From assembly GCA_937872315.1 (NCBI GenBank), contig CALMST010000338.1, positions 1-51,443 of the forward strand: a stretch of 51,443 nt of DNA. Reading direction: 5' to 3'. The first letter of the stretch is position 1. Each line of letters begins with the position of its first letter. Both the position numbers and the translations under genes were made by a program. Under the pieces are notes generated by a model. The model saw nothing but the letters and a program-made list of their open reading frames with translations. It made no database searches and had not been told where the DNA came from. The DNA is from an uncultured Ignavibacteria bacterium. GTDB lineage: Bacteria > Bacteroidota > Ignavibacteria > Tepidaquicellales > Tepidaquicellaceae. Positions 21,829 through 23,925 of this stretch are shown here, piece after piece.

Positions 21829-22035
21829 TTAACAGCAATTTTTTCCCTTCCGGACAGGAGGGCATTTAACCGAACCATAGCTGCAGAATACGCAGCAGTC
21901 ACCGGGTTTTGGTTTCAATAAGTTTCTGCAGTTTTCACATTCGTAAAACCACTGACATGAATTCAAAGACATTGTCTCTTCTTTTGAATGTCCGCATTCC
22001 GGACAGGTTATAGTAGATAAAAGTATAAGTTCCAT
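21829..22035 (-). CDS. GDCCVxC-domain small cysteine-rich protein
   Basis: 68 residues with 12 cysteines. CPEC at 11-14, CENC at 33-36 and GDCCVFCSYGSVKCPP at 45-60 match the GDCCVxC family, in which some members carry selenocysteine. Here all positions are cysteine. The family appears to bind metals or act in redox chemistry and is common near mercury and arsenic genes. It is the first gene of a likely unit with DinB and tag, downstream of the arsM terminator. No SigZ-type promoter is found upstream. Confidence 0.75.
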   Translation of the reverse strand: MELILLSTITCPECGHSKEETMSLNSCQWFYECENCRNLLKPKPGDCCVFCSYGSVKCPPVRKGKNCC

Positions 22036-22343: not shown

Positions 22344-23126
22344 TTATTTAATACCGCTCACAGTAATGCTCAGAATTTTGGTTCCGCTTCTTTTGTGATC
22401 TTTAAGTTCATCTTCACTTATCAGATCAAGCATTGTATCATCCGAAATATCAATAATTTTCTCTTTCAGAATACTGACGTTAGTAAACCCGCAATCTTTG
22501 ATAATATTTATGTAATCCTCTTTCTGTACAGCGCCTGAAACACAGGCTGCATACATCTCGGCTGCATGTCTTACCTTGTCCGGAAGTTCGCCCGTGATCA
22601 CAATATCCGATATGGTAAAATGTCCTCCGGGTCTGATCACGCGGTACATTTCACTGAAAGCTCTTTTTTTGTCCGGTACAAGATTCATTACACAGTTGCT
22701 GAGTACGACATCCACGCTGTTATTATCAACCGGCATGTCTTCAATATCTCCCAGTTTGAATTCCACATTTTCCATTCCCAGTTTTTCCCTGTTCTGATTA
22801 GCTTTGTTTATCATTGCTTCGGTCATATCCAGCCCGATAACTTTTCCGCTATCACCTGCAATCTTCGCTGCTATGAAAACATCATTGCCCGCTCCGGATC
22901 CGAGATCCAGAACAGTATCTCCCTCTTTTATATCGGCAAACTTTGTCGGTATCCCGCAGCCAAGCGCATAATCCGCCTCCTTTACATATCCTTCCAGTGT
23001 TGAATAATCTTCAGCCATTGAGTCTCCCGAACTGCAACAGTCCGTTCCGCAGCATCCTGATCCTCTCTCTTCCAAAACTTCTGTGTAAGCTTTCTTTACT
23101 GATTCTTTTATTAATGTACTTTCCAT
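22344..23126 (-). CDS. arsM: Arsenite S-adenosylmethionine methyltransferase
   Basis: 260 residues. SAM-binding motif I VLDLGSGAGNDVF is at 72-84 and motif II at about 126-131. The three cysteines that bind As(III) in ArsM are C57 (ALGCGIP), C145 (SNCVMNL) and C195 (AACVSGA). An extra N-terminal cluster GCCGTDCCSSG (24-34) may deliver arsenic. The enzyme methylates arsenite stepwise to volatile or less retained species using SAM and thiol reductants. Its promoter at 23167-23194 nearly duplicates that of sigZ. It has its own terminator. Confidence 0.93.
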   Translation of the reverse strand: MESTLIKESVKKAYTEVLEERGSGCCGTDCCSSGDSMAEDYSTLEGYVKEADYALGCGIPTKFADIKEGDTVLDLGSGAGNDVFIAAKIAGDSGKVIGLDMTEAMINKANQNREKLGMENVEFKLGDIEDMPVDNNSVDVVLSNCVMNLVPDKKRAFSEMYRVIRPGGHFTISDIVITGELPDKVRHAAEMYAACVSGAVQKEDYINIIKDCGFTNVSILKEKIIDISDDTMLDLISEDELKDHKRSGTKILSITVSGIK

Positions 23127-23166: not shown

Positions 23167-23194
23167 TAAGACGCGGATTTTATAAAAAGACGCA
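23167..23194 (-). promoter_or_regulatory. Predicted SigZ promoter of arsM
   Basis: On the minus strand TGCGTC (23189-23194) and GTCTTA (23167-23172) are spaced by 16 nt. The 33 bases around match the sigZ promoter at 27 positions, including TGCGTCTTTTT, AAAATC and GTCTTAT. Transcription would begin about 35 nt before the arsM ATG. Confidence 0.7.
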
Positions 23195-23324
23195 GGTTTG
23201 AAATAAATTTACAAATTGCAAAAAATTAATCTCCCTGCAGTTGAATTGATGATTTAAAAATGTAAAAATCTCTTTTCCATCTGCCCTGTCTTCTATTTTT
23301 GTTAAAGCTGAATGCGATATGTGT

Positions 23325-23891
23325 TCAGCAGGATTTTTTATCGGTTCTTGAATGGTATTCAATAATATTCCCGTATTTATCATATGAGATATTACAGCAG
23401 TCTTCGAATAGTTCTTTGAGTTTTACTTTTGCTCTTTGCACGCGGGATTTAGCGCCGGAGTATGAAATTCCGAGATGATCTGCGAGTTCGAGCTGAGAGT
23501 AATTCTCAAACTCCGTAAGTGTTAATGCTTCTTTGTAGATCGGGGGAAGTTTGTTTATGAAAGGAACCACACACTCCGAAAGTTTTAAATTATTTTCATT
23601 TAAACCATCTGAGTCAGACTGTGCCGTGTTTTCAGAATTATCATCAAACTCTTTTAAAATCTTCTTACTTCTGAAATAATCAATGATGGAATTATAAGTG
23701 ATCCTGTATATCCAGAACTTCAGACTCTTGTCATCTTTTAATGAATGAATGTTCTTCTGAATTTTTATAAAGGTCTCCTGCAATATGTCCTTAGCCGCAT
23801 CCCTGTCTTTAACTTTACTCAATATAAAGTTAAACAACTCCCTGTTAAAATTTTTCCAGATCGATTCCAGATTTTTGTTATGTGATGTCAT
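23325..23891 (-). CDS. sigZ: ECF sigma factor of the SigZ type
   Basis: 188 residues. The sigma-70 region 2 covers about 10-77 (DAAKDILQETFIKIQKNI, LKFWIYRITYNSIIDYFR). Region 4 covers about 105-160 (KLPPIYKEALTLTEFENYS, ISYSGAKSRVQRAKVKL). The C-terminal tail EDCCNISYDKYGNIIEY is the SigZ hallmark; it holds C165 and C166, with C188 as the last residue. No anti-sigma gene is adjacent. The promoter at 23898-23925 matches that of arsM, so it is probably autoregulated. The -10 box ends only 6 nt before the ATG, so the mRNA may be leaderless. Confidence 0.9.
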   Translation of the reverse strand: MTSHNKNLESIWKNFNRELFNFILSKVKDRDAAKDILQETFIKIQKNIHSLKDDKSLKFWIYRITYNSIIDYFRSKKILKEFDDNSENTAQSDSDGLNENNLKLSECVVPFINKLPPIYKEALTLTEFENYSQLELADHLGISYSGAKSRVQRAKVKLKELFEDCCNISYDKYGNIIEYHSRTDKKSC

Positions 23892-23897
23892 AATAGA

Positions 23898-23925
23898 TAA
23901 GACAGAGATTTTTCAAAAAGACGCA
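23898..23925 (-). promoter_or_regulatory. Predicted SigZ promoter of sigZ (autoregulatory)
   Basis: TGCGTC (23920-23925), 16-nt spacer, GTCTTA (23898-23903) on the minus strand, matching the arsM promoter. Confidence 0.7.

Follow-up and report, generated by a model that had tools for sequence, protein, structure and literature searches.

CorE and CorE2 of Myxococcus xanthus (ECF44, now ECF238) are stand-alone ECF sigma factors for which direct metal sensing has been proposed (PMC3107203, PMC8999054), and a metal-sensing sigma factor made of a single protein is thus already known in principle. In these proteins, a CXC motif lies in the sigma2–sigma4 linker (PMC8999054), a C-terminal cysteine-rich domain carries four invariant Cys residues (CX2C-X7-CXC; PMC3107203), and the Cys spacing of this tail sets the metal specificity (PMC8999054). 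Self-sensing of a metal has likewise been reported for an OrbS-type sigma factor with an on-board iron sensor, which differs in being an iron starvation sigma factor (PMC9023288). SigZ of Bacillus subtilis has C at -34 in its -35 element (PMC6713349) and is given no role in a table of the sigma factors of this organism (PMC10141391). In the open-access literature that we searched, no paper links SigZ with arsM, and a published description of its ECF group may exist.

Here we analyzed a stretch of 51,443 nucleotides from an uncultured Ignavibacteria bacterium (the window; contig CALMST010000338.1), in which sigZ lies next to arsM. The explanation that we favor, and regard as moderately probable as a whole, is that SigZ is a self-sensing activator of arsM that stands in the place of ArsR.

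The sigZ–arsM locus and its promoter motif

The features of the locus are as follows.
23325–23891, minus strand: sigZ, ECF sigma factor of the SigZ family, 188 aa (TIGR02959 and PRK09637)
22344–23126, minus strand: arsM, As(III) S-adenosylmethionine methyltransferase, 260 aa (NF008823)
21829–22035, minus strand: Cys-rich zinc-ribbon-like ORF downstream of arsM, 68 aa, with a GDCCVFCSYG motif (sequence reading)
23898–23925, minus strand: predicted SigZ-type promoter of sigZ, exact match; -35 TGCGTC at 23920–23925, -10 TGTC/GTCTTA at 23898–23903
23167–23194, minus strand: predicted SigZ-type promoter of arsM, exact match; -35 TGCGTC at 23189–23194, -10 CGTCTTA at 23167–23173

SigZ scored 189.2 bits against TIGR02959, above the curated cut-off of 168.65, and 204.3 bits against PRK09637 (SigZ), just under the cut-off of 212. 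It contains sigma-70 regions 2 and 4 only (PF04542 and PF08281) and no region 3, which identifies it as an ECF factor, and its fold agrees with ECF structures. ArsM passed the cut-off of the arsenite methyltransferase model NF008823 (321.7 bits; cut-off 263). Among named records, MAG HKST-UBA123 is the nearest, with 85% identity in SigZ and 94% in ArsM. The gene pair has uvrC upstream; on its downstream side lie the Cys-rich ORF and genes for a DinB-like protein and for a DNA-3-methyladenine glycosylase. The 68-aa Cys-rich ORF has no motif of its own and is possibly cotranscribed with arsM as an operon partner; a near-identical ORF is kept in the nearest relative (L045, 8827–9036). A preliminary description of this DNA had noted that no anti-sigma factor or ArsR gene lies nearby, and inspection of the neighbors in the window agreed with it. 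The genome does have an ArsR, which adjoins acr3 on contig C140 without arsM; it encodes three HTH_5 proteins, one of them beside acr3.

The same description had reported TGCGTC-N16-GTCTTA upstream of both genes on the minus strand, within 33 aligned bases of which 27 are identical, and nowhere else in the window. All three points proved correct: both copies matched without a mismatch at 23167–23194 and 23898–23925, 27 of 33 bases were identical when the alignment was counted from TGCGTC, and no further exact copy was found in the window, where matches with two mismatches occurred at chance level. The genome search that had been proposed as a check yielded exactly two exact copies in 4.56 Mb, those of sigZ and arsM. 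Sites with one mismatch numbered 8 in the whole genome and 18 for the reversed-pattern control; therefore, nothing beyond the two exact copies rises above the control, and the one-mismatch sites were rejected as extra promoters. A third site, found on contig C57 with the relaxed family pattern described below, was judged spurious from our reading of the sequence, having N14 spacing and lying antisense in a long minus-strand open frame.

The sigZ ATG lies 6 nt after the end of the -10 of its promoter copy (window 23891–23903, minus strand). The distance from the TGTC/CGTC box to the ATG is 9 nt, and both same-genus genomes have the box at the same position and spacing; in several further loci, with start codons chosen by us, the box ends 5–12 nt before the sigZ ATG. 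Since ECF transcription usually starts several bases past the -10 and the ATG is so near to it, the sigZ transcript is probably leaderless. The spacing at arsM is unlike this, with at least 29 nt between the box and the start in all but two aberrant cases.

The -35 layout is that of SigW (T-36 G-35 A-34 A-33 A-32 C-31, then a T-tract), except that -34 is C. When the ECF factors of B. subtilis were compared, C-34 of the SigZ promoter was aligned with G138/S141 (PMC6713349), which correspond in our alignment to G146/S149 of the SigZ studied here and are near-invariant in the family. Both residues lie in the following element.
23427–23465, minus strand: recognition helix of SigZ, residues 143–155 (including S143, G146, K148, S149, and R150), near-invariant in the family (alignments)
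This helix is expected to read the TGCRTC -35.

Promoter sites at sigZ and arsM in other genomes

Named genomes were scanned with a SigZ alignment, which gave 80 loci spanning Bacteroidota, Ignavibacteria, Bacillota, Chloroflexota, Calditrichota, Acidobacteria, Planctomycetota, and others. We searched the 79 loci with a called sigZ ORF (963 kb) for the family pattern TGC[AG]TC[CT][AT]T-N11-14-[CT]GTC and found 114 sites, compared with 5 for the reversed pattern. Twenty-nine sites stand before sigZ, 29 before arsM, and 31 before another gene within three of sigZ; the rest comprise 20 without a called gene start and 5 far away. The consensus is TGCGTC(C/T)TTTT ... CGTCT, in which the 25-base class has a spacing one base shorter than the 26-base class, and TGCRTC(Y)TTTT...CGTC was found before sigZ and/or the adjoining gene in loci of Bacteroidota, Ignavibacteria, Bacillota, Chloroflexota, and other groups. 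In a phylum draw of 296 genomes, 44 encoded SigZ-like proteins, and in 19 of these 44 the motif lay no more than 1.5 kb from sigZ. Genomes lacking sigZ had 0.21 sites per whole genome, a background from which we estimate about 0.01 chance coincidences of motif and sigZ in total.

Tiny Cys-rich ORFs lie behind five of the sites that have no called gene (L046, L067, L069, L072, and L108). The promoter pattern helps to find metalloid-defense genes, even metallothionein-like ORFs so small that gene callers may overlook them.

Comparison of upstream regions in relatives, also proposed earlier, showed that both same-genus genomes keep sigZ–arsM and a site before each gene. This retention of the site before sigZ supports the autoregulation that had been suggested for this lineage; positive autoregulation is indicated by the sites here and in many Bacteroidota. 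Many Bacillota and Chloroflexota have the site only at the target gene and not before sigZ, so the feedback loop seems to be optional and the target promoter not. Two further observations concern individual loci. Five SigZ-type sites lie in 12 kb around sigZ in L116 (Kouleothrix, G353 contig C3511, 9.6–21.2 kb), the largest local regulon that we encountered. L064 and L065 are two identical SigZ copies with identical neighbors, separated by ca. 80 kb on a single Ignavibacteriae contig.

Among 59 relatives, ArsM was present in 51 and SigZ in only 6. The arsM loci of 27 sigZ-less relatives of the same class (L197–L223) had arsR on the same strand just upstream in 25 cases and the SigZ motif at arsM in none of the 27; acr3 was also near arsM in ten. 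In the genome of the window, sigZ occupies the usual place of arsR at arsM, and arsR is together with acr3 on contig C140. Because arsR stands before arsM in 25 of the 27 sigZ-less relatives and the motif in none, SigZ appears to have taken the place of ArsR before arsM. This exchange, seen by comparison of gene orders, points more strongly to a role in arsenic defense than any other observation. ArsR is a repressor that is released by As(III). ArsR-controlled arsM operons have the same enzyme gene in the same position in related genomes, whereas the gene in the place of arsR is here that of a sigma factor, by nature an activator. If this is true, arsenic methylation can be turned on through a sigma factor and not by the removal of a repressor.

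A shared motif of this kind could also be a repressor operator or a chance resemblance, as a short local duplication could give two 28-bp matches in one window. We consider this explanation nearly refuted: the motif is non-palindromic, has the layout of an ECF promoter (-35 T-36 G-35 C-34 and T-tract as in SigW) with narrow spacing, is tied to sigZ across phyla far above the control, and does not occur upstream of arsM in the relatives that lack sigZ. Chance or duplication as the origin of the motif was rejected on its cross-phylum conservation and the reversed-pattern control. The identification of the motif as the SigZ promoter, made earlier from the window, is therefore borne out by this conservation, by its near-exclusive position beside sigZ, and by the arsR/sigZ exchange.

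According to our preferred explanation, SigZ would act alone as a positive regulator of the detoxification of arsenic (soft metalloids). Together with RNA polymerase, it would read TGCGTCTTTTT-N-CGTC and transcribe arsM and, in its own lineage, sigZ, and transcription of sigZ would form a positive loop that amplifies the response.

C-terminal cysteines and candidate metal sensing

The residues that may take part in sensing are encoded as follows.
23394–23399, minus strand: codons of C165–C166, end of the region-4 helix; Cys-Cys in 80 of 80 homologues
23571–23573, minus strand: codon of C107, start of region 4; kept in 64 of 80 homologues
23328–23393, minus strand: C-terminal extension, predicted β-hairpin (strands 166–170 and 176–181) and tail ending in C188 (AlphaFold2 model)

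C165, C166, and the terminal C188 had been pointed out correctly in the preliminary description; C107 is additionally widely conserved. The pattern used to scan for homologues did not include Cys-Cys. A Cys aligned with C188 is present in 72 of 80 homologues, and at least one tail Cys in 78 of 81. The next Cys past C166 usually follows after 16–19 residues, and the number and spacing of tail Cys residues vary widely; the SigZ of the window has a single one, and most relatives have two or more. Within the genus, the tail ends differ and the terminal Cys is kept (RTDKKSC, RNTKNNCR, and RNSGKNC). SigZ of B. subtilis (TIGR02959) belongs to the same sequence family and has the Cys-Cys in common. 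Compared with the SigZ of the window, the Bacillus-type factors L092 and L095, two of the three that lack tail Cys residues, are also without arsM and without SigZ-type sites at sigZ or its downstream neighbor. In the third, L084, every tail Cys is absent, yet the motif and arsM are present; therefore, the tail is not strictly required, or the L084 gene is damaged.

An AlphaFold2 model (75 sequences) reached a mean pLDDT of 84.7 and a pTM of 0.50, a pTM that makes the placing of the two domains unreliable. The last region-4 helix is predicted to run to residue 165, followed by the hairpin and a loose end with C188. Because the match of solved ECF structures ends at profile position 157, the extension is without a solved relative by sequence.

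SigZ resembles CorE and CorE2 in that its C-terminal extension carries Cys residues, no anti-sigma gene is linked to it, and its regulon serves soft-metal handling. No anti-sigma family occurred among the neighbors in the window or among the 25 commonest neighbor families of the homologues (128 proteins beside SigZ). The CXC of the CorE linker (PMC8999054) and the CorE cysteine-rich domain (PMC3107203) were each found in 0 of 81 SigZ homologues, and membership in ECF44/ECF238 was rejected on these two tests. In contrast to CorE, SigZ has the CC pair where region 4 ends, then a hairpin and a Cys tail that is short and variable; its promoter begins with TGCRTC, and its targets are metalloid genes. 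SigZ occurs in Bacteroidota, Bacillota, Chloroflexota, and others, where a 2011 survey found no CorE-like factors. At most, then, SigZ works like CorE, and membership of the CorE group is not indicated. With the CXC linker motif and the cysteine-rich-domain spacing of CorE absent, SigZ would be an independent solution and, if it does sense metals, the second, structurally different family of metal-sensing sigma factors.

Direct metalloid sensing through C165, C166, and C188 is the most economical reading, and CorE and CorE2 show that sigma factors of this kind exist. The trigger would most likely be a thiophilic metalloid, As(III) or a methylated or related As/Sb species, bound by C165–C166 and by C188 past the β-hairpin, perhaps also by C107. 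Binding would lock the tail and thereby permit binding to the promoter or to RNA polymerase, as the cysteine-rich tail of CorE does. Direct sensing by cysteines is compatible with their conservation and with the lack of a recurring partner, and the CorE/CorE2 precedent speaks for it; we regard the case as evenly balanced.

The main rival to direct sensing is structural zinc combined with an unlinked partner. SigZ would then still drive arsM and itself, the cysteines would hold structural zinc, and the activity would be set by an unlinked anti-sigma factor, a protease, or a second sigZ promoter under a metal regulator such as the ArsR of contig C140. For most ECF factors that have been studied, an anti-sigma partner is known. 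The genome encodes three HTH_5 proteins, and its ArsR, located elsewhere, could act on arsM indirectly. The CC-hairpin-C layout is compatible with a structural zinc site, and L084 keeps the motif and arsM without tail Cys residues. However, none of the commonest neighbor families is an anti-sigma family, the terminal Cys stays while the tail sequence around it varies within the genus, and the Cys number and spacing vary widely, unlike in most structural zinc sites. On balance, this rival is rather unlikely.

Target genes across the SigZ family

In 35 of the 80 loci, arsM is found at most four genes from sigZ, and in 30 the two are direct neighbors. The distances among SigZ and ArsM proteins were correlated (r = 0.70; reached in 0 of 5000 permutations), to which shared organismal descent contributes. 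In loci without arsM, the motif precedes an ArsP_1 permease (L074, L077, L104, and L122), a DUF2703 protein (e.g., L060, L068, L082, and L099), ArsI/CadI (L113), or a metallothionein-like peptide of 27–62 aa; L074 and some of the DUF2703 proteins were assigned by sequence similarity to scanned ones. The commonest Pfam families next to sigZ are DUF2703 (9) and ArsP_1 (7). arsM is the sole target found in the genus itself. In G307, of another genus of the same family, the promoter is followed by a metallothionein-like ORF and then sigZ, and arsM is elsewhere.

The metalloid theme read earlier from the arsM promoter was thus upheld and widened, the regulon being one of metalloid and soft-metal detoxification by its target classes. 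We hold the assignment of promoter and regulon, drawn from genome comparison, to be close to certain, and a metalloid or soft-metal role of SigZ to be very probable. The SigZ family thereby gains a promoter, a coherent regulon, and a candidate sensing site.

The breadth of these targets bears on the signal. SigZ might sense something other than arsenite (Cu, Cd, Hg, Zn, antimonite, a methylated arsenical, or disulfide/thiol stress), with ArsM as one of several outputs. The promoters before metallothionein-like peptides, DUF2703 proteins, and ArsP_1 permeases and the arrangement in G307 fit such a signal, as does the variable spacing of the tail Cys residues, which sets metal specificity in CorE/CorE2 (PMC8999054). 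On the other hand, the commonest targets that can be named are arsM, ArsP, and ArsI/CadI, and in the genus itself no target but arsM was found. We rate a non-arsenite signal as a serious possibility, somewhat less probable than its opposite.

A more general proposal, which we make tentatively and believe only slightly less than we doubt it, is that the SigZ family consists of pan-bacterial one-protein, cysteine-based sensors of metalloids and soft metals. These would recruit RNA polymerase directly to a conserved promoter in front of arsM and of genes for ArsP, ArsI, DUF2703, and metallothioneins, would have displaced ArsR from arsM loci, and would have evolved apart from CorE. If direct sensing is true, one protein and one promoter would make a compact two-part biosensor for arsenicals or soft metals.

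DUF2703 proteins recurrently adjoin sigZ behind a SigZ-type site (L060, L068, L073, L082, L099, L102, and L124), a position that suggests a metalloid or soft-metal role for DUF2703. Some more distant SigZ-like factors in Bacteroidota (such as L030, L031, and L033) have no recognizable TGCRTC site; these and other distant SigZ-like factors (L020, L028, L037, and L038) have metallothionein-like Cys-rich mini-ORFs directly upstream, apparently in one transcription unit. In L027 and L034, a SigZ-type site precedes sigZ and a selD-like gene (selenophosphate synthase) lies two genes upstream, an arrangement that possibly links SigZ to selenium.
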